Below, in pieces: positions 3,908-16,116 of a stretch of 33,714 nucleotides of DNA. Made by a program: the position numbers and the translations under genes. The stretch is from a virus. Positions within the stretch are counted from its first letter, which is position 1; each line of letters opens with the position of its first letter. The notes beneath the pieces are model-generated. The model had not been told where the DNA came from. It saw nothing but the letters and a program-made list of their open reading frames with translations, and ran no database searches. The stretch covers positions 1,028-34,741 of IMG/VR virus record IMGVR_UViG_3300014050_000077; one strand, given 5' to 3'.

Positions 3908-4540
3908 ATGATGACATTCGAGCACGCGACAACATCAACGGGTGGAGGATTCTCCCGCCCCTTCAAAATGCCTTGTCCCGCCTACTCAATTCCCGCGAGC
4001 CTTTGCAAGGTAGGCGGAAAACTGAGAAAGGTTGAGGGTTCGGTATGTAGCAAGTGCTACGCGATGAAAGGCAACTATGGCTTTCCCGCAGTACGGGCTG
4101 CCTTGGCTCGCCGTTTGCGTTCCTTACGGCATAAAGATTGGGTGGATAGTATGGTTTACTTAATCGAAGCGGAAGGGAATGCGTTTTTTAGATGGCACGA
4201 TTCGGGAGATATTCAGAATCAGAATCATCTTAAAAAGATAGTCGAAGTTTGCGAACGTACTCCAAACGTGCGCCATTGGCTGCCAACGCGAGAAGCTGGC
4301 ATACTTCAATCATTCATCAATAACGGCGGGAAAGTGCCCGAAAATCTAACCATTCGCCTTTCCGCGCATATGATTGATGGCGTTGCCCCGTTGCCATTGG
4401 CTCGCCGTTTAGGCGTTCAAGTGTCGACTGTAGTTACAAGCGGGAAAACTTGCCCATCAGCTGAGCAGGGTAACAAATGCCTAACTTGTCGCGCTTGTTG
4501 GGATAAGAAAACGGAGTGCGTAGCATATGGCAAACATTAA
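3908..4540 (+). CDS. GP88-like cysteine-rich phage protein
   Basis: The start at 3908 (or 3911) follows GGGGAGA with good spacing and gives 210 residues. It resembles the phage 'gene product 88' family: a CPAYSIPASLC segment, CSKCYAMKGNYGFPAVRAALARR-like text at about 47-70, FFRWHDSGDIQ at 93-103, VRHWLPTREAGIL at 121-133, and a C-terminal cysteine cluster (C182, C191, C194, C197, C204). The paired cysteines suggest a bound metal or iron-sulfur cluster. CSKCYA recalls CxxCYA motifs of radical-SAM-like phage proteins, but no complete CxxxCxxC is present. The family's biochemical role is not known to me. It is the largest protein of the rightward cluster. Confidence 0.7.
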   Translation: MMTFEHATTSTGGGFSRPFKMPCPAYSIPASLCKVGGKLRKVEGSVCSKCYAMKGNYGFPAVRAALARRLRSLRHKDWVDSMVYLIEAEGNAFFRWHDSGDIQNQNHLKKIVEVCERTPNVRHWLPTREAGILQSFINNGGKVPENLTIRLSAHMIDGVAPLPLARRLGVQVSTVVTSGKTCPSAEQGNKCLTCRACWDKKTECVAYGKH

Positions 4541-4679
4541 ATATCACTACGCCGTTTATAATTCACTAGGTCAATTCTTCGCGCGGTTCACGTCCTACTC
4601 AAATGCCCTACGTTGGGCAGTGAGGAACGGGATGGAATGGAGCGCGATAATAAGAAAAGAAAAGGAAAATACAAAATGA
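4527..4679 (+). CDS. Small basic hypothetical protein
   Basis: A 50-residue frame starts at ATG 4527, overlapping the end of the GP88-like gene, and stops at TGA 4677-4679, which overlaps the next ATG as ATGA. The product (NIKYHYAVYNSLGQFFARF, then SNALRWAVRNGMEWSAIIRK) looks like a small alpha/beta fold of the kind that carries a flexible lysine-rich tail. I recognise no family. The chain of overlaps on both sides is the main evidence that it is translated. Confidence 0.6.
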   Translation: MANIKYHYAVYNSLGQFFARFTSYSNALRWAVRNGMEWSAIIRKEKENTK

Positions 4680-4879
4680 ATGCAAATGAAATAATTAAAG
4701 AATCAAAAATCTTCCAATTTGATGATTGCGGAAAGGTTCGGAATGCCTATGCGCGATATTATCAAGATGGAAATATTGATATTGAGATTGAAGATTTTGA
4801 TGCGCCTGGGAGCGCGTATGATAGCGCATGGATTGCTGCGGAAAAACTAGGCCTAATGCGAGAAGGGGTAACGCAATGA
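4676..4879 (+). CDS. Small acidic hypothetical protein
   Basis: The start at ATG 4676 overlaps the preceding TGA, giving 67 residues. AAAAGGAAAA upstream is a weak ribosome-binding site. The product is acidic, with a beta-hairpin-like centre (NAYARYYQDGNIDIEIEDFD) and a C-terminal helix (SAYDSAWIAAEKLGLMREGV). No family is recognised. Acidic small early proteins can be DNA mimics or inhibitors of host enzymes, but nothing specific supports that here. Its stop overlaps the next small gene. Confidence 0.65.
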   Translation: MNANEIIKESKIFQFDDCGKVRNAYARYYQDGNIDIEIEDFDAPGSAYDSAWIAAEKLGLMREGVTQ

Positions 4880-8877: not shown

Positions 8878-9996
8878 TTATTTGCTTTCTTTAACTTCCT
8901 CCAACTCCATCGCCTTCTTACTGGCCTCAACAATATCCTGCGCTGTTATATTCCGCAGAGCGTTACACCAGTATTGAGTTTTCGGGGTGCGATTGCTCGC
9001 ATCCTTACACTTAGCTTGTGGCAACCCAGCGTGCGGTCGGCAAGGTGCGTGTGGGCAAGTATCAGGCTTAAACACCGATACGTTCTTACTATAATAAGTC
9101 ATTCTGTCGGCGGGGTCGTAGCTTCCCCACAACGACACACACGGTGTATCCAACCCAGCAGCCATGTGGTTGACAGAGCTATCGGGCGCGACAACAAAGT
9201 CAGCCCCGCTGATAATCGGGAACAGCGAGCGAACAGCCTTGGTGCAATTGAATAGGTCGATCACCCTGGGATGATCCACCTTAAAGTTGTTTGAGTTGTC
9301 CAGCCCGATAATCACAGCGTGATGCTTTGGATAAGCCTCAAGCAACGCCAGCACCGCCTCCTGCCCCATCGTTGGCGGGTAGGTGCGGGTAGGACCACTG
9401 GACGAAACGTGGTAAGCAAAGAACGGACTAGGCAACGGCCACTTGCCCATCGCCTTTAGCTCTTCGTGGTCTGGCTCGATGAGATGTAGGACTGGCTTAC
9501 AATACTTAGCCATACTCTTCTCATCCCACACACCCATCCACTCGTAGATCCTCTGGTAGCAGTTACCAGGACCAGTGCCTAGCTTCGTGTTGCCTACCTG
9601 CCCGCTGAACAAATCATCCGTAGGCAAGTGAGCGTCAAAAGAATCCCACGCCTCCAGCGAGGATGGCAGCGGCCACAGCTTTGCACCCAGCCCAGCGTAG
9701 AGAGGCAGGTTGCGAGCAGGTGCGTAAACCTCCACAACCCCGCCCGACTCTTGCACCAAGTAGTTGACGAAGGAAGTAGCGATGATTGCGTCACCGATTG
9801 CACCAGCGCGGTAGACGGCTGTTGCCCCACCAGCAGCGCGCCCCTTGTAGTACGGCTTGATCTTATGTGGGCAAGGGATTGAATCGTCCCAGATTGGTCC
9901 AGTTAACTCATCGGGCAACACATAGGTTGTGCGGGGGTAGAGCATATTGTCATCGACCTTGTGAATTGCGTTTGTGTTGTTAGTCCATAGTTTCAT
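8878..9996 (-). CDS. Glycosyltransferase, GT9 (heptosyltransferase-like)
   Basis: The 372-residue product starts at ATG 9996 with AGGAG about nine bases upstream, inside the last codons of the methyltransferase gene. The GT-B fold is shown by a glycine-rich N-terminal loop (YRAGAIGDAIIATSFVNYL, about 62-80) and by the C-terminal nucleotide-sugar motif (GADFVVAPDSSVNHMAAGLD, about 264-283, then PCVSLWG). This is the pattern of ADP-heptose:LPS heptosyltransferases and GT9 relatives. Several late cysteines and histidines (DTCPHAPCRPHAG, YWCNALRN) are unusual. It could glycosylate modified phage DNA bases or host surface glycans. Context with the methyltransferase and oxygenase favours DNA, but this is unproven. 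Confidence 0.8.
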   Translation of the reverse strand: MKLWTNNTNAIHKVDDNMLYPRTTYVLPDELTGPIWDDSIPCPHKIKPYYKGRAAGGATAVYRAGAIGDAIIATSFVNYLVQESGGVVEVYAPARNLPLYAGLGAKLWPLPSSLEAWDSFDAHLPTDDLFSGQVGNTKLGTGPGNCYQRIYEWMGVWDEKSMAKYCKPVLHLIEPDHEELKAMGKWPLPSPFFAYHVSSSGPTRTYPPTMGQEAVLALLEAYPKHHAVIIGLDNSNNFKVDHPRVIDLFNCTKAVRSLFPIISGADFVVAPDSSVNHMAAGLDTPCVSLWGSYDPADRMTYYSKNVSVFKPDTCPHAPCRPHAGLPQAKCKDASNRTPKTQYWCNALRNITAQDIVEASKKAMELEEVKESK

Positions 9997-10000
9997 TTGG

Positions 10001-10768
10001 TTATTCTCCTATTACTTGGTTGATGCATCTGATGATTTCTGACGCGACTTGCGGGACGAGAGCGTTTCCAAGTCCTTTAATTCGTTCAGCTCTGTATGGT
10101 TTTGTGGGTACCCCATCATAAACTCCAAAAGATTCGGACATAATCTTTTTCCCGTTAACTTTGCATATTGTTCCGCAAGATTCCCATTCGGATGAACATC
10201 GTATCTTTTTGCCAAACTCCTCGCCGAAAATGATGCCCTCTTGCTTCCGTCCGATGCTGACGGAGTAAGCCACAATCCAGATTCTTTTCCTGAGATGTGG
10301 TGCGCCAAACATAGCGGCTGGAACAACTTGCCATTCCGCATCGTACCCGACGTCGGCAAGCGATTGTAAAACGATGTCGAGTCCTTGGTTCGTGAGTGCC
10401 TGGACGTTTTCTGCGACCACGAACTTTGGCCTTGCCTCCTTGATAATCCTTTGCATTTCAAACCAGAGTCCGCTTCTTTGGCCATCAATTCCGTTTGATT
10501 CAAACTTTCCTTGAGTTGTCCAAGACTTTGCGTAGCTAATGTCTTGGCAGGGGAACCCACCTGTGAGAAGAGTGACTCCTGCGTATAGCTCGCCTCGTAC
10601 TTCTCGGATGTCTTTGTGGCACGGGACTTCTGGCCAGTGCTTTTTGAGAACGGCTTGGGCGTATGGTTCGTTGTCACAGAATCCGACGGTTCTATATCCG
10701 TTCCACTTTGCGGCCAAGGCAAATCCACCGATCCCGCTGAATAAGTCGAGGTGTGTTTTTTCATTCAC
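10001..10768 (-). CDS. dcm: C5-cytosine DNA methyltransferase
   Basis: The 255-residue product starts at a GTG (10768) ten bases after AAAGGAG. It has the classical ordered motifs: I DLFSGIGGF at 8-16, IV GGFPCQDIS at 70-78 with catalytic Cys74, VI AENV at 119-122, VIII near LRKRIWIVAY at 159-168, and X GLGNALVPQVA at 232-242. The region between VIII and X is short, so the target recognition domain is minimal. It transfers methyl from S-adenosylmethionine to C5 of cytosine, protecting phage DNA or starting further modification. A second frame is open across almost the whole gene and is discussed as a finding. Confidence 0.93.
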   Translation of the reverse strand: MNEKTHLDLFSGIGGFALAAKWNGYRTVGFCDNEPYAQAVLKKHWPEVPCHKDIREVRGELYAGVTLLTGGFPCQDISYAKSWTTQGKFESNGIDGQRSGLWFEMQRIIKEARPKFVVAENVQALTNQGLDIVLQSLADVGYDAEWQVVPAAMFGAPHLRKRIWIVAYSVSIGRKQEGIIFGEEFGKKIRCSSEWESCGTICKVNGKKIMSESFGVYDGVPTKPYRAERIKGLGNALVPQVASEIIRCINQVIGE

Positions 10769-11134: not shown

Positions 11135-11353
11135 TTATATGTTGTAATAGGGATTAGGCACTGATGGTGCTTGTACCCCGAAACTTGGGTTCTCGCATCT
11201 GCGACAATCGCGCAGGTCAAAGTCAAGTATCTCGCCAGAGTTAAGCATGACTGTAAATATCTTGTTATGATCCATGCCATAGTCCGTAACAATAAAAGCC
11301 AAGCCTTCACCCTTGGGTGTCATCATCCATAGTTCTGGATTGAGTTGGATCAT
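11135..11353 (-). CDS. Hypothetical protein
   Basis: The ATG at 11353 overlaps the TGA of the oxygenase gene (ATGA) and gives 72 residues; the longer frame to 11404 is an extension into that gene. The product looks beta-rich (GLAFIVTDYGMDHNKIFTVM, SGEILDFDLRDCRRCENPSF) and ends in VPNPYYNI. An SH3-like or OB-like barrel is possible from the strand pattern. The CRRC could bind a metal. No family is recognised. Confidence 0.65.
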   Translation of the reverse strand: MIQLNPELWMMTPKGEGLAFIVTDYGMDHNKIFTVMLNSGEILDFDLRDCRRCENPSFGVQAPSVPNPYYNI

Positions 11354-11922
11354 TTCCAAGCAGGTCCAGTAAACCAAGCCACCAACACCCAGCGCGTTCC
11401 CCATATTGGCGCACGCGCACGATGCTCAATGTAGGACGGAAACCAGCAACCAGCCCCCTGCTCTCGGATGAACTGAGTGTTCACCATATCAGCCTTAACC
11501 TGCAACCCGCCTCCGATATACTCCTCTGGTGCGGACAGGTTAACCACCGCCGTAAGCTTGCGTACTGGTGGTTCGGATGTGTAGGTGTCGTAGTGCCAAG
11601 AGAACTTCTGTAGTGGGCGGTATCGCAGGATCTGCAACTGCTGGATGCCTTGGATGTCGAAACGCCATTGCTCGGCATTGATGCTTTCCGTAATCTCGCG
11701 CATGATATTGTAGATCCAGTTGTGATGCTTGGCATAAGGTATCCAGCACGATGAGCAGGTTCGCGTACGCGATACCGTACGGGTAACGCCATCCTTCGAC
11801 AACACTGGCGCACGCTTCATTCCGATTACTTCCGCATCTTGGCGCAGCATCTCGCATTGCGTCTTGGTTAGGACGTAGCGGTCCACTGAAGCGGTTAATA
11901 CCTTCTGCTTAAACTCGCTCAT
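11350..11922 (-). CDS. 2-oxoglutarate/Fe(II)-dependent oxygenase
   Basis: The 190-residue product starts at ATG 11922 (ATGA with the preceding gene, AAGGAG upstream). The double-stranded beta-helix core has the iron ligands H110 and D112 in FSWHYD, the distal H167 in SYIEHRA and R177 ten residues later for 2-oxoglutarate. This is the P4H/PKHD spacing, with RKLTAVVNLS and EYIGGGLQ as typical strands. An added N-terminal segment contains CSSCW. It hydroxylates a substrate using O2 and 2-oxoglutarate. Phage members act on proteins or on nucleic-acid bases. Its place between a C5-methyltransferase and glycosyltransferases raises base oxidation as a possibility. Confidence 0.85.
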   Translation of the reverse strand: MSEFKQKVLTASVDRYVLTKTQCEMLRQDAEVIGMKRAPVLSKDGVTRTVSRTRTCSSCWIPYAKHHNWIYNIMREITESINAEQWRFDIQGIQQLQILRYRPLQKFSWHYDTYTSEPPVRKLTAVVNLSAPEEYIGGGLQVKADMVNTQFIREQGAGCWFPSYIEHRARAPIWGTRWVLVAWFTGPAWK

Positions 11923-12248: not shown

Positions 12249-12569
12249 TCAAGTAGGCAGAACATAGTCGTTTTCCTTTAGCTTTCGTAACAGCGTTCTA
12301 TTATCAATCTGCACCCCGCTGGCTCTGCACCACCAGGAGACAACGCCAGTCTTAAAGTCACGCAGTAGCTTCTGAACTTCGTGTGAGTTCTTATACTCAA
12401 GCGCATCGTTGAGTGGCACGCCTTGGTGATCCTTAATGATCTTCATACCCTTAACCATCCCACGCTTGCGCAGCATCCGCAGATCGCGGATAGCTTGGAG
12501 TGCAACCTCCCCAGCCAACTGCTGCACCCTGTCATCGTAATCACCGCGACATAACTGGGTTGACCTCAC
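12249..12569 (-). CDS. Hypothetical protein
   Basis: The 106-residue product starts at a GTG at 12569 that overlaps the TGA of the glycosyltransferase gene as GTGA. It is mostly helical and basic (GEVALQAIRDLRMLRKRGMV, SHEVQKLLRDFKTGVVSWWC), with a C-terminal IDNRTLLRKLKEND helix that could read DNA. No family is recognised. Its location inside the modification operon suggests a role there but gives no mechanism. Confidence 0.65.
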   Translation of the reverse strand: MRSTQLCRGDYDDRVQQLAGEVALQAIRDLRMLRKRGMVKGMKIIKDHQGVPLNDALEYKNSHEVQKLLRDFKTGVVSWWCRASGVQIDNRTLLRKLKENDYVLPT

Positions 12570-13231
12570 CGACCTAGCTCCACCAGCTTTGCTTCGTCTT
12601 CTTTAATCTGGTTAGCTAACTTAACCAGATCGTTTGATTGCCCAGCGTAGTGAATAATCATCGCATCCTTGTAGCGGTCCAAACCAAAGTGCGACTCAAC
12701 GCTTGTCATACAATTGAAGGACGGGTCAAGCTCGGTCAGCGGAATGTTCCATAGGTGCGCCATCACGTTTAGCCAGGTCTGCTCGGCAAAGTGATTTGGA
12801 TGAAGGCCAATGGGTGGCATTGATAATATACCAACGGCCTTGGTATGAACTACGAACACGCCAGTGTTTACATAGAACTTAGGCTCAATCACTCCGCCGA
12901 AGGCTCCAGCCAGCTTCACCATATCTGGCTTGCGGTCCAAGTAAGCTCCCTCATCAAAGGCACAGAATACGCCAGCGTCATCGGATAACTTCGGGCAATC
13001 GTTTGCAATCAAAACATCAGCGTCAACAAATGTCACTTGGTCATAGTGTTTAGTAGCCATGATATTTCCAATCGCAGACTTGGAGTATTGGGCTGGATGC
13101 GTAAGAGGCTTGTCGATTAGAATGAAGTCAACGCTATGGCGTTTGCAGTACGCCTCCATCCTTGGCCTAGTAAGATCAATAATCTTCTGCCAATCCTCAC
13201 CAAACGATTGTGTGACTAATGCTTGTTTCAT
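12566..13231 (-). CDS. GT-A-fold glycosyltransferase (GT8-like)
   Basis: The ATG at 13231 overlaps the preceding TGA (ATGA), giving 221 residues; an in-frame ATG at 13246 is less likely. The N-terminus MKQALVTQSFGEDW is the first Rossmann strand, VTFVDADVLI at 67-75 carries the metal-binding DxD (D70, D72), YVNTGVFVV at 120-128 is the acceptor-site loop, and IHYAGQSN near 193-200 is the late histidine region of GT8-type enzymes. It transfers a sugar from a nucleotide donor. Being in one operon with a methyltransferase and an oxygenase makes DNA bases a plausible acceptor. Virion or surface glycans remain alternatives. Confidence 0.75.
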   Translation of the reverse strand: MKQALVTQSFGEDWQKIIDLTRPRMEAYCKRHSVDFILIDKPLTHPAQYSKSAIGNIMATKHYDQVTFVDADVLIANDCPKLSDDAGVFCAFDEGAYLDRKPDMVKLAGAFGGVIEPKFYVNTGVFVVHTKAVGILSMPPIGLHPNHFAEQTWLNVMAHLWNIPLTELDPSFNCMTSVESHFGLDRYKDAMIIHYAGQSNDLVKLANQIKEDEAKLVELGR

Positions 13232-13383
13232 TTTACGTTCTTCCATATTTTGCCATGCTCATCCAGCGCGGATGACCAGATCATCATCTTGTTGTAGATG
13301 CTGTAGGCGCAGCCAAACCTCATCAGCGTTAGGCTAATCAGATCACCGATCTGATAACAGATCCAAGACAAGGCAAGTTTCAT
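13228..13383 (-). CDS. 51-residue hydrophobic small protein
   Basis: A frame from ATG 13383 (overlapping TGA 13382-13380 of the gene before it) to TGA 13230-13228 (overlapping the glycosyltransferase ATG) encodes 51 residues. The first 30 are hydrophobic (KLALSWICYQIGDLISLTLM, RFGCAYSIY), suggesting membrane association, and the tail is polar (DEHGKIWKNVK). An exact inverted repeat ATCAGATC/GATCTGAT lies within the coding sequence at 13337-13355. It might help anchor the downstream glycosyltransferase, but no family is recognised. Confidence 0.6.
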   Translation of the reverse strand: MKLALSWICYQIGDLISLTLMRFGCAYSIYNKMMIWSSALDEHGKIWKNVK

Positions 13384-13550: not shown

Positions 13551-13843
13551 AGTCTTGTTACCTCTTTCTTTATTTGTGCTAACGTGAACAGGCATCGTAC
13601 CAGAGCGCGCTCAAGGTGGTCAACGCTTGTTTCGCCGTTGTTGTCAGGGCAAGGCATGGATTTGTGGAGCTGCATCTGTGCCGTGGCTAGGTGGCGAACA
13701 GCCCTAGCAATATGGTAATCGTGGGTAGGCCGATCCTTCTCCAGCCAATCTCCATAACCAGACTTATCCGATCCCTTACCCATCACGCGCCAGACTATCT
13801 CCTGCGCAGCAAGACCCATCTCTTGAATTGTCGGTGCAGTCAT
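13547..13843 (-). CDS. Helical protein resembling the DUF5664-type phage family
   Basis: The ATG at 13843 overlaps the preceding TGA (ATGA) and gives 98 residues. Segments DYHIARAVRHLATAQMQLHK and GETSVDHLERALVRCLFTLA give a paired-helix layout with conserved histidine and acidic residues. I recall a similar arrangement in DUF5664 (dATP/dGTP diphosphohydrolase-like) proteins of phages. If correct it would adjust deoxynucleotide pools. The similarity is partial, so the function is tentative. Confidence 0.45.
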   Translation of the reverse strand: MTAPTIQEMGLAAQEIVWRVMGKGSDKSGYGDWLEKDRPTHDYHIARAVRHLATAQMQLHKSMPCPDNNGETSVDHLERALVRCLFTLAQIKKEVTRL

Positions 13844-14253
13844 TTTGCGCACCTAATAATTGTTTCAGCAAAATCTTTAAGTTCTTTAATTGCATTTTCC
13901 AGCGTCCCAACATTCCTTGCCCTAGCCAACAACCAAGGCGATGGGTTGTCATTTGATGTAAAAAATAGAACTGGCTTACCCTTCATATGCGCGTAAAAAA
14001 TTTCCATACCAGTTCCCCAGCCTGGTTTATCGCAATTTGCCAGAACCACACTTGAGTTATCTACACACATCATATCCTCCTTTACTATTGTTGAGCTGTT
14101 TACTGTGTCGAATTTTGTACCACGATAATCCCTATCCAGAGGATTTAATACATCATAAATCTCTGACAAACTTTCGGACGCAATTCTGCGCCACTCCTGC
14201 TCTTCGTTGGTTGTTCCGTAGATTGCGCCAGCAAGATATACTTTTGGTTTCAT
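13840..14253 (-). CDS. Nucleoside 2-deoxyribosyltransferase-like protein
   Basis: The 137-residue product starts at ATG 14253 (ATGA). It shows KVYLAGAIYG at the start, VLNPLDRDYRG near 35-45, a DxxSSVVLANCD strand at about 65-75, GWGTGMEIFYAH at 79-89 with the catalytic-type Glu84, and GKPVLFF. These are features of the nucleoside 2-deoxyribosyltransferase superfamily, whose members swap bases on deoxyribose or cleave modified nucleotides. Next to QueD and a DpdA-like gene, it could act in nucleotide salvage or in clearing an unwanted base. Confidence 0.78.
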   Translation of the reverse strand: MKPKVYLAGAIYGTTNEEQEWRRIASESLSEIYDVLNPLDRDYRGTKFDTVNSSTIVKEDMMCVDNSSVVLANCDKPGWGTGMEIFYAHMKGKPVLFFTSNDNPSPWLLARARNVGTLENAIKELKDFAETIIRCAK

Positions 14254-14687
14254 ATATTTTCTACCCTTATCCTATTGTTTGAGCCTTCACGCAAAACAAT
14301 AGCCCTCAATTTCAGCTTTTCGCATTCAAACATTTTTAGCCTCTTAAAAAACCAGTTCCCAACATTTTCTAAAGTAGTAGGAAAATCAAATACCTCGTTT
14401 AAATTGCTGTGGTCGCAGGACCGAACAAGTGTTTGAGTATAGTCTTTAAGCTCGCCAAACGGATAAATCATAGGCTCTTGATCCGTTGGAAAACCCTCCC
14501 ACTCGACATCAAGCGAGTAGGTGTGGCCGTGATTACGGAAACATTTCATAAGACCAACCAATGAGTTGTGATGCAAATATAAAAAGTCTTCTTTTTTCAA
14601 ATTGTGTGAAGCATCAAATTTAAACGACTGTATGACAGTGTATTTGACTCCACCTAGTTTTGTTTTGTTTAGGTCTTTAGCAAACAT
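14250..14687 (-). CDS. queD: 6-carboxytetrahydropterin synthase (QueD-like)
   Basis: The 145-residue product starts at ATG 14687 with AAGGAG six bases upstream. The family's key residues are present: zinc ligands His28 (FDASH), His53 and His55 (HGH), catalytic Cys49 four residues before HGH, Asp92-His93 in CDHSNLN, Glu134 in LREG, and the PTTLENVG helix. QueD converts dihydroneopterin triphosphate to 6-carboxy-tetrahydropterin, the second committed step to preQ0. FolE, QueE and QueC are not in this window, so they come from the host or elsewhere on the phage. The gene overlaps the DpdA-like gene by 19 bases. Confidence 0.9.
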   Translation of the reverse strand: MFAKDLNKTKLGGVKYTVIQSFKFDASHNLKKEDFLYLHHNSLVGLMKCFRNHGHTYSLDVEWEGFPTDQEPMIYPFGELKDYTQTLVRSCDHSNLNEVFDFPTTLENVGNWFFKRLKMFECEKLKLRAIVLREGSNNRIRVENI

Positions 14688-15301
14688 TTTTGACTCCTTC
14701 CGTTTCCATATTTTTCTTCTAGATATTTTATAAGAGGTTGCAATCTTTTCATTCCACCCCTAACCCAACCAGTTCCATCGCAACTTTCAACATTATTTTC
14801 ATCACATATCCACAGTCCTTCATACGAATTGACTCTTCCGCAATGAACTCTTTTACCTATGGAGCAAAACTCTGGAAGCATTTTCCACTTCCACTCAAAT
14901 GAGCCACCCATAAAAATAATTTCAGCTTCACTCGGAACATCGCTTGGAGTCATTCCGTCTTGCGCAACAAATGCAACTGGAAATTTCCACTCAGAAATTC
15001 TTTCATAATGCTTGTCCCACATTTTTAGAGTTTCATTCTTGTCCATAACCTTATCTGGACAAGCAACCCAAAGCGGCTTATTCCAACACGGGACTTTGTC
15101 CAGCATTTTATAAAACTCTTTTTCATCCCATTCTGTTTTATTTGTGAATGCGTAATAAGCCCCATTATCAAGTGCATATGGAATTACCTCTGGAAGATAT
15201 CTCCATCCATTTGGAGATATAAGCAAACCGATTGAATCCTTAAATTTACCAGCCAAGTATCCTATCATAAAGCCAGTATTATTTGTTGGCATTACGATCA
15301 C
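14669..15301 (-). CDS. dpdA: DpdA-like 7-deazaguanine DNA transglycosylase (TGT fold)
   Basis: A GTG at 15301 overlaps the preceding TGA as GTGA and gives 210 residues; ATG 15292 is an alternative. The text follows phage TGT-like DpdA proteins: PYALDNGAYYAF at about 41-52 with the acidic DNG, LWVACPDKV at 77-85, FPVAFVAQDGMTPSD at 107-121, IIFMGGSFEWK at 128-138, RVHCGRVNS at 151-159 and ESCDGTGWVRGG at 172-183. DpdA enzymes exchange guanine in DNA for a 7-deazaguanine such as preQ0. No zinc site of bacterial TGT is evident, as expected for the phage forms. The QueD gene next door supplies the precursor pathway. Confidence 0.78.
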   Translation of the reverse strand: MIVMPTNNTGFMIGYLAGKFKDSIGLLISPNGWRYLPEVIPYALDNGAYYAFTNKTEWDEKEFYKMLDKVPCWNKPLWVACPDKVMDKNETLKMWDKHYERISEWKFPVAFVAQDGMTPSDVPSEAEIIFMGGSFEWKWKMLPEFCSIGKRVHCGRVNSYEGLWICDENNVESCDGTGWVRGGMKRLQPLIKYLEEKYGNGRSQKCLLKT

Positions 15302-16116
15302 AACTTCATCCCAGGAGGCGTGTAGCCCTTGACCCAAGACCAGACTTTCTGCATTGCGCAGAAGGCAATACCAGCTTGGTAGAGTTCGTCCTCGTCCCAC
15401 ACCTTTGTCATCAGCTTGGTAGCATCATTTGATGCTAGGACCACCGACACGCAGGCGCATTTGGGATTCTCGCTTGCGGCTCGGTATGCCCAAAGCTGGG
15501 CGCAATCCGTATCGTAGAAAGGATCGTACTTAGGATTAACCTTACGATTCTTTAAGTCGATGATAGCGTCACCAATACCGCGTAGCTTGACGTAGGCATC
15601 ACACCTGCCCGCATACCCTCCGCCGACAAGACCCTTTTCGCACCAGTAGGTTTTCTCGACATTCTTTTCTGCCCACTCGGTGAATGTTTTGATGTACGGA
15701 GCAAGTGTCTCATCTTTGGATACGGCTCTTCCCAAGAGGATGTTTTCCATTTCCGTGTGCATTTTCGTGCCGTGTTCAGCTGCCTTCGTTGTTGATTCTT
15801 TAGAGTCCTTAACCACTCTTCGAGCGTAGGTTTCGAGCGTTTCATCTGCCTCCTTCGGAAGCGTGAGCGAGGACATAATGGCCTGCTCTATCTTCCAAGC
15901 CGTCAATTGCGGCTTATCCATAATGCCAAGCACGCTGGTTACGGATGGGTACAATCCCATCTGGCGCGCATCGGCTACGGTTGTGTTTCTTTCTTTTCCG
16001 TTCTTGCCAATCACAACGTGGGCGGATTCACCCTCGGCTGTGTACCAATGTCCCGCCTGGTCAGTAGCGACCAGACGGGAATTAGTAGGCTCTTTCGCTG
16101 TGATTGTAAGAGCCAT
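15298..16116 (-). CDS. PD-(D/E)XK exonuclease (RecB/Cas4-like)
   Basis: The 272-residue product starts at ATG 16116. Nuclease motifs are in order: HGTKMHTEMEN at about 115-125, GYAGRCDAYV at 167-176 (Asp173), IIDLKNRK at 185-192 (Asp187 and Lys189) and AQLWAYR at 206-212, as in RecB-like phage exonucleases. No cysteines form a clear Cas4 iron-sulfur set. It lies directly after the putative ssDNA-binding protein gene, so together they may form an exonuclease plus single-strand-binding recombination pair. It would resect double-strand ends during replication or repair. Confidence 0.82.
   Translation of the reverse strand: MALTITAKEPTNSRLVATDQAGHWYTAEGESAHVVIGKNGKERNTTVADARQMGLYPSVTSVLGIMDKPQLTAWKIEQAIMSSLTLPKEADETLETYARRVVKDSKESTTKAAEHGTKMHTEMENILLGRAVSKDETLAPYIKTFTEWAEKNVEKTYWCEKGLVGGGYAGRCDAYVKLRGIGDAIIDLKNRKVNPKYDPFYDTDCAQLWAYRAASENPKCACVSVVLASNDATKLMTKVWDEDELYQAGIAFCAMQKVWSWVKGYTPPGMKL

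Follow-up and report, generated by a model that had tools for sequence, protein, structure and literature searches.

The viral DNA that we analyzed (the window, 33,714 nucleotides of IMG/VR record IMGVR_UViG_3300014050_000077) carries three overlapping genes that probably form a DNA-modification cassette, in which a QueD-like enzyme would boost the preQ0 supply of the host and a small transglycosylase would swap guanines. An earlier note on this sequence had described two of these genes, queD and a gene for a TGT-fold protein, with ORFs overlapping by 19 bases. Both ORFs lie where that note placed them and share these bases on the minus strand, but a third overlapping gene, encoding a nucleoside 2-deoxyribosyltransferase (NDT)/DNPH1-like protein, had been missed (Table 1). 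In the eight relatives that we checked, dpdA and queD overlap by 19 or 10 bases, and the overlap of queD with ndt is 4 bases in all eight. The mechanical ORF of the TGT-like gene extends to 15400, and the first residue of its relatives corresponds to the GTG start given in the table; from there, the gene overlaps the end of the minus-strand exonuclease gene by 4 bases. Searching the window and six loci with Rfam gave no match, hence no preQ1 riboswitch at gathering thresholds, and PADLOC gave no match either.

Table 1. Location of the cassette genes, their overlaps, and other features referred to in the text
Feature	Location	Strand	Details
Small DpdA-like (TGT-fold) guanine transglycosylase	window 14669-15301	-	210 aa; GTG start at 15301; phrog_15826, 2e-29
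QueD-like 6-carboxytetrahydropterin synthase	window 14250-14687	-	145 aa; Pfam PTPS, 7e-23
Nucleoside 2-deoxyribosyltransferase/DNPH1-like protein, third cassette member	window 13840-14253	-	137 aa; PF05014, 4e-11
Exonuclease gene upstream of dpdA-like gene	window 15298-16116	-	phrog_298, 1.7e-18
Overlap, dpdA-like end/queD-like start	window 14669-14687	-	19 bases, ORF coordinates
Overlap, queD end/ndt start	window 14250-14253	-	4 bases
Small TGT-like gene, SHIN8	L033:5932-6524		annotated as two overlapping ORFs
Small TGT-like gene, R29Z	L028:4767-5351
2OG-Fe(II) oxygenase	window 11350-11922		common to L005 and L008
GT8-like glycosyltransferase	window 12566-13246		common to L005 and L008
GT9-like glycosyltransferase	window 8878-9996		common to L005 and L008

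To place the small protein, we compared its AlphaFold2 model, built from 78 relatives (mean pLDDT 93.5, pTM 0.90), with known structures. Nearly all of the top matches in the PDB were tRNA-guanine transglycosylases (TGTs; 49 of the 50 Foldseek matches listed, the best at E about 2e-5, with ~10% sequence identity) rather than members of a non-TGT family, the remaining one being a DHPS, and VIA-align superposed the model on TGT over 204 residues (Z 15.1, 3.6 A). The motifs DNG, QDG, HCGRVNS, and DGTGW are present, and the family landmarks follow in the order D45-N46-G47, D83, Q114, G132-G133, and D175, with N46, D83, Q114, G132, G133, and D175 found in 78/78 sequences, D45 in 77/78, and G47 in 73/78. 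The landmarks of bacterial TGTs, which in the numbering of the Zymomonas enzyme are D(102)SGG, D156, Q203, G229-G230, and D280, correspond to these by motif order and, in the C-terminal part, also by hhalign, which uses no structure and aligned residues 86-185 with host TGTs, placing SCDGTGW on FDCVMPTR (E 2.2e-4). An invariant Lys138 occupies the count position of TGT Glu235 and, judging by this spacing, may bear on which base is accepted. The CxCxxC zinc motif of bacterial TGTs was not found in the 210-aa protein, Pfam TGT (PF01702) gave no match to it up to E 0.1, no Pfam or NCBIfam family exceeded its cut-off, and a profile search of the phrog_15826 family against PDB sequences returned no TGT; the relation shows only by fold and by profile-profile comparison. 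The model, the structural alignments, and the conserved landmarks agree with the TGT fold read from the sequence earlier, and the predicted barrel together with the catalytic and base-binding residues places the protein in the TGT/DpdA transglycosylase superfamily.

Within this superfamily, the only PHROG that the protein matches is phrog_15826, listed as of unknown function. The DpdA proteins of Escherichia phage SHIN8 and Vibrio phage R29Z match phrog_887/7068, not phrog_15826, and hhalign of the small protein against phrog_887 DpdA gave a weak match, at a probability of 16 on a template of only three sequences. The profile comparison with DpdA subfamilies proposed in the earlier note thus led to a small family of its own, with phrog_887 unmatched; the name DpdA-like holds for the fold, the catalytic residues, and the gene neighborhood, but the validated phage DpdA family does not include the protein. 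Two further subfamilies, DpdA3 and DpdA4, were reportedly added by Cui in 2023. In SHIN8 and R29Z, where phrog_887 DpdA is encoded near FolE and QueD, a small TGT-like protein is present besides DpdA, not replacing it, and its gene is close to that of the DNA polymerase; a single-sequence scan using the R29Z protein gave no match. Among the tblastn matches of the small protein there was no Cellulophaga, Campylobacter, or archaeal virus, and we found no published chemistry on any phrog_15826 member.

The product of the second gene scores 81.3 bits against Pfam PTPS (cut-off 22.4), and phmmer matches it to solved PTPS/QueD chains. The motifs CxxxHGH, DH, and PTTxEN and the C-terminal Glu are intact, and an alignment of 14 PTPS/QueD proteins, one of them from E. 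coli, shows no variation at H28, C49, H53, H55, D92, H93, or E134, in agreement with the initial assignment of C49 as catalytic and of H28/H53/H55 as zinc ligands. We call the protein QueD-like because its score against TIGR03367, the NCBIfam QueD equivalog, is under the naming threshold (63.8 bits, cut-off 89.25). SHIN8, which like CAjan is a Seuratvirus, has a QueD that is also below it, at 62.5 bits, and complementation of E. coli was shown for QueD from the related phage 9g (Hutinet 2019, PMC6884629), so that a low score is not by itself an argument against function.

The third gene product exceeds the PF05014 cut-off (43.6 bits vs. 28.8), and its AlphaFold2 model (pLDDT 82) has the 2′-deoxyribosyltransferase 7o62 as its best Foldseek match (4e-8; VIA Z 15.9), the hydrolases DNPH1 and MilB being near-equally close folds. 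Y6, D60, D65, and E84 are invariant, and Glu84 is presumed to be catalytic. As modeled, the protein belongs to the nucleoside 2-deoxyribosyltransferase superfamily, in which base exchange and nucleotide hydrolysis are predicted activities not separable from fold alone.

We then considered the other steps of the preQ0 pathway. FolE, QueC, and radical-SAM (QueE) proteins, which the earlier note had not found in the window, are absent from the whole 34.7-kb record as well, and from 24 relatives, several of them 29-38 kb long, in searches that were positive in control genomes; as neither the record nor the relatives carry a completeness estimate, this absence is strong, not absolute. A portal-like gene lies at the start of the record and the major capsid gene at its end, and the unseen part of the genome is probably small and structural. 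Given these ends, and relatives of 33-38 kb that are likewise without the genes, the earlier suggestion that this part holds them is unlikely to be right. The other suggestion, that the phage relies on its host for the remaining steps, is our preferred inference, since incomplete gene sets are usual in the family. Relatives of the terminase of the window phage are at most 37.5% identical, the nearest being Akkermansia phages. In L002 (record bases 1-1500), the portal gene region has a short run of N, a small assembly gap.

The three genes travel together. They are contiguous in 14/14 IMG/VR loci whose TGT-like protein is at least 76% identical to that of the window, and they sit on two unrelated phage backbones. 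Their contexts differ: they come after the exonuclease gene in window-type phages and after a GT9-like glycosyltransferase gene in L008 and L009, whereas in L010 and L015-L017 they follow a gene whose small, HTH-like product may be the small terminase subunit and precede an HNH-like gene and the terminase gene; L016 encodes a GpA-type terminase and a lambda-type portal. Nucleotide identity between the window and L010, per 100 bases, is 24-45% outside the cassette and 57-94% inside it, with sharp edges at the dpdA start and the ndt end. The exonuclease gene is local context outside the exchanged cassette, since identity is at background upstream of dpdA. Protein identities to L010 are unequal (QueD 97%, DpdA 80%, NDT 70%), suggesting that exchange has also taken place inside the cassette. 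Values of dN/dS were 0.02-0.26 where computable, indicating purifying selection in all three genes, and because the arrangement recurs in 14 loci under such selection, it is neither chance nor an assembly artefact. In L013, a PAPS-reductase-like protein (4048-4800) is encoded directly 3′ of the three genes, and in L032 and L034 annotated PAPS reductase proteins are found near the small TGT-like gene.

A single scan returned 545 relatives of the small protein. For phrog_15826 we counted 107 clusters at 90% identity, considering the genes within the sequence covered. Alongside the transglycosylase, QueD was the only partner in 14 clusters, QueD with NDT in 6, QueC alone in 10, a transporter-like protein alone in 9, QueE alone in 3, FolE alone in 1, and other combinations in 11; 53/107 clusters, many of them bacterial contigs, had no preQ0-type partner in the sequence covered. 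Across 50 whole records, we found QueC in 16, QueD in 18 (17 of them over cut-off), and FolE in 3. QueC and QueD are together in 7, and QueC is without QueD in 9; not counting the window record and its 24 relatives, at least 9 records have QueD but no QueC. We considered mutual exclusion of QueD and QueC and dropped it, their joint occurrence in 7/50 being about the independence expectation from 16 and 18. QueC and QueE exceed NCBIfam cut-offs in some relatives, and three actinophages, ReqiPine5, Aoka, and Phegasus, encode the small protein beside, or one gene after, a transporter-like membrane protein that matches the queuosine precursor transporter model TIGR00697 below its cut-off (E 7e-9, 2.5e-8, and 8e-12, respectively). 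In a quick tree, the NDT+QueD cassette groups as a single clade (support 100), with the other partners spread over the tree; the starred branches require QueD to have changed at least 4 times, QueC and the transporter at least 2 times each, and QueE at least 3 times. A single preQ0 gene or precursor transporter is thus often paired with the transglycosylase, and the partner has switched repeatedly on the tree. Homologues of phrog_15826 also occur in many Burkholderiaceae genomes (L183-L222; Caballeronia and Paraburkholderia contigs); in L191, L211, and L213, the gene immediately downstream encodes a protein of about 600 aa whose N terminus resembles PAPS reductase.

Based on these observations, we propose that the phage QueD-like enzyme would raise flux through step two of the pathway, from dihydroneopterin triphosphate to 6-carboxytetrahydropterin, with FolE, QueE, and QueC presumably supplied by the host; the phage would add the step that is limiting in the host or absent from it, and take the rest. 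The small DpdA-like transglycosylase would then exchange selected guanines of phage DNA for a 7-deazaguanine base, preQ0 or a close derivative, a replacement expected to hinder host restriction. The NDT/DNPH1-like protein, acting most likely on the deoxyribosyl side, would recycle the guanine released by the exchange or, alternatively, cleave modified or unmodified deoxynucleotides for base reuse, a role that may be guessed within the constraints of fold and linkage only. That the target is DNA is suggested by the kinship with DpdA, by the missing zinc site, and by the place among phage DNA genes. Which 7-deazaguanine is inserted still cannot be read from the sequence, as had been noted; QueC, the last step, or a precursor transporter is present in some relatives, which favors preQ0 or a later derivative. 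SHIN8 and R29Z, in which the small protein occurs alongside phrog_887 DpdA and FolE/QueD, support the mechanism, and the dpdA-only phages whose DNA carries dADG are a precedent for it; we counted against it the low identity to TGT, the QueD score under TIGR03367, the lack of a preQ0 gene in about half of the clusters, and the very low or absent modification in published dpdA-only phages. More tentatively, and short of an even chance, phrog_15826 as a whole might represent a separate, widespread group of minimal (about 200 aa) DNA guanine transglycosylases, to which each carrier adds a different preQ0 step (QueD, QueC, QueE, FolE, or uptake), with a fixed NDT/DNPH1-like third component in the clade of the window.

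The same genes could serve host tRNA instead, QueD boosting queuosine for a benefit in translation and the transglycosylase acting on tRNA or another RNA rather than on DNA. Fold comparison matched the protein to solved TGTs that act on tRNA, and a tRNA benefit has been proposed for phages with preQ0 genes and without DpdA (Hutinet 2019, PMC6884629), but we consider this unlikely: the 210-aa protein lacks the zinc motif, genes for replication, recombination, or packaging surround several family members, and 9/10 bacterial genomes with a phrog_15826 homologue also encode TGT, which would make a phage copy for tRNA redundant.

We regard as slightly less probable still a nucleotide route, in which the NDT-like protein would join 7-deazaguanine to deoxyribose ahead of phosphorylation and incorporation by a polymerase, the TGT-like protein being accessory. 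The fold matches 2′-deoxyribosyltransferases, ndt is present in 15/15 cassettes, and undetected 2′-deoxyribosyltransferases have been raised as a possibility (Hutinet 2019, PMC6884629); moreover, QueC-family cluster 4 co-occurs with PF05014 proteins in about 89% of neighborhoods (PMC13329287), an independent hint of a link between this enzyme class and QueC-like proteins. Against this route, none of 50 other phrog_15826 family records has an NDT over cut-off, so that the transglycosylase is the constant member, and no kinase was identified in the cassette. Least probable are relic or nonfunctional transferred genes that currently modify no DNA; the preQ0 pathway is incomplete in the phage, and the dpdA-only phage Orion has no detectable modification (PMC8306585), but purifying selection, intact catalytic residues, and conserved overlaps speak for genes in use.

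The 2OG-Fe(II) oxygenase and the two glycosyltransferases of Table 1, which may act on DNA bases or on something else, are encoded in the same genome. In addition, window positions 10001-10768 encode a C-5 cytosine DNA methylase that matches Pfam profile positions 4-163 of 324 (first half only); the homologous ORF of L005 is longer (15082-16002), and the window copy may be truncated or frameshifted.

Modification of phage DNA by 7-deazaguanines and reliance on host precursors are already known (PMC6884629, PMC8306585). As far as we have checked, the fold assignment of phrog_15826, the interchangeable single-step partners, and the fixed three-gene cassette appear to be new. They would turn a family of unknown function into a predicted DNA-modifying enzyme in hundreds of viral contigs and add an enzyme of the deoxyribosyltransferase type to the chemistry of 7-deazaguanines in DNA. 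Whether dpdA-only phages modify their DNA has been called difficult to predict (Hutinet 2019, PMC6884629), and one transglycosylase with interchangeable single preQ0 steps makes that question testable.

Compared with known systems, the small protein shares with bacterial and archaeal Tgt (PF01702) the barrel and equivalent catalytic residues, but differs from it by the absence of a Pfam match and of the zinc motif and by the Lys at the Glu235 count position. Like phrog_887 DpdA (Seuratvirus/9g/CAjan type), it belongs to the TGT superfamily, is linked to preQ0 genes, and has the motif order D-S/N-G, GG, H, SCD-S/G, whereas that enzyme has about 306 aa against 210 and no PHROG in common with it. 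The NDT-like protein has the fold of nucleoside 2-deoxyribosyltransferase, DNPH1, and MilB, with a conserved Glu at the expected place, and, unlike them, is encoded in an overlapping cassette with dpdA and queD. Proteins of the same phrog_15826 family, about 30% identical and some annotated DpdA-like, are found in Mycobacterium, Arthrobacter, and Rhodococcus phages; Phegasus, Aoka, and ReqiPine5 differ from the window in having a TIGR00697-like transporter nearby instead of QueD. The dpdA-only phages (Salmonella 7-11, Pantoea MED16, and Mycobacterium Orion) likewise have a transglycosylase without the full preQ0 pathway. The DNA of 7-11 and MED16 carries dADG, for which host supply was proposed (PMC6884629, PMC8306585); modification is very low in MED16 (0.13% of G), and Orion shows none (PMC8306585). 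In contrast to these phages, which have no preQ0 gene, the window phage combines the transglycosylase with one step of the pathway and an NDT-like protein.
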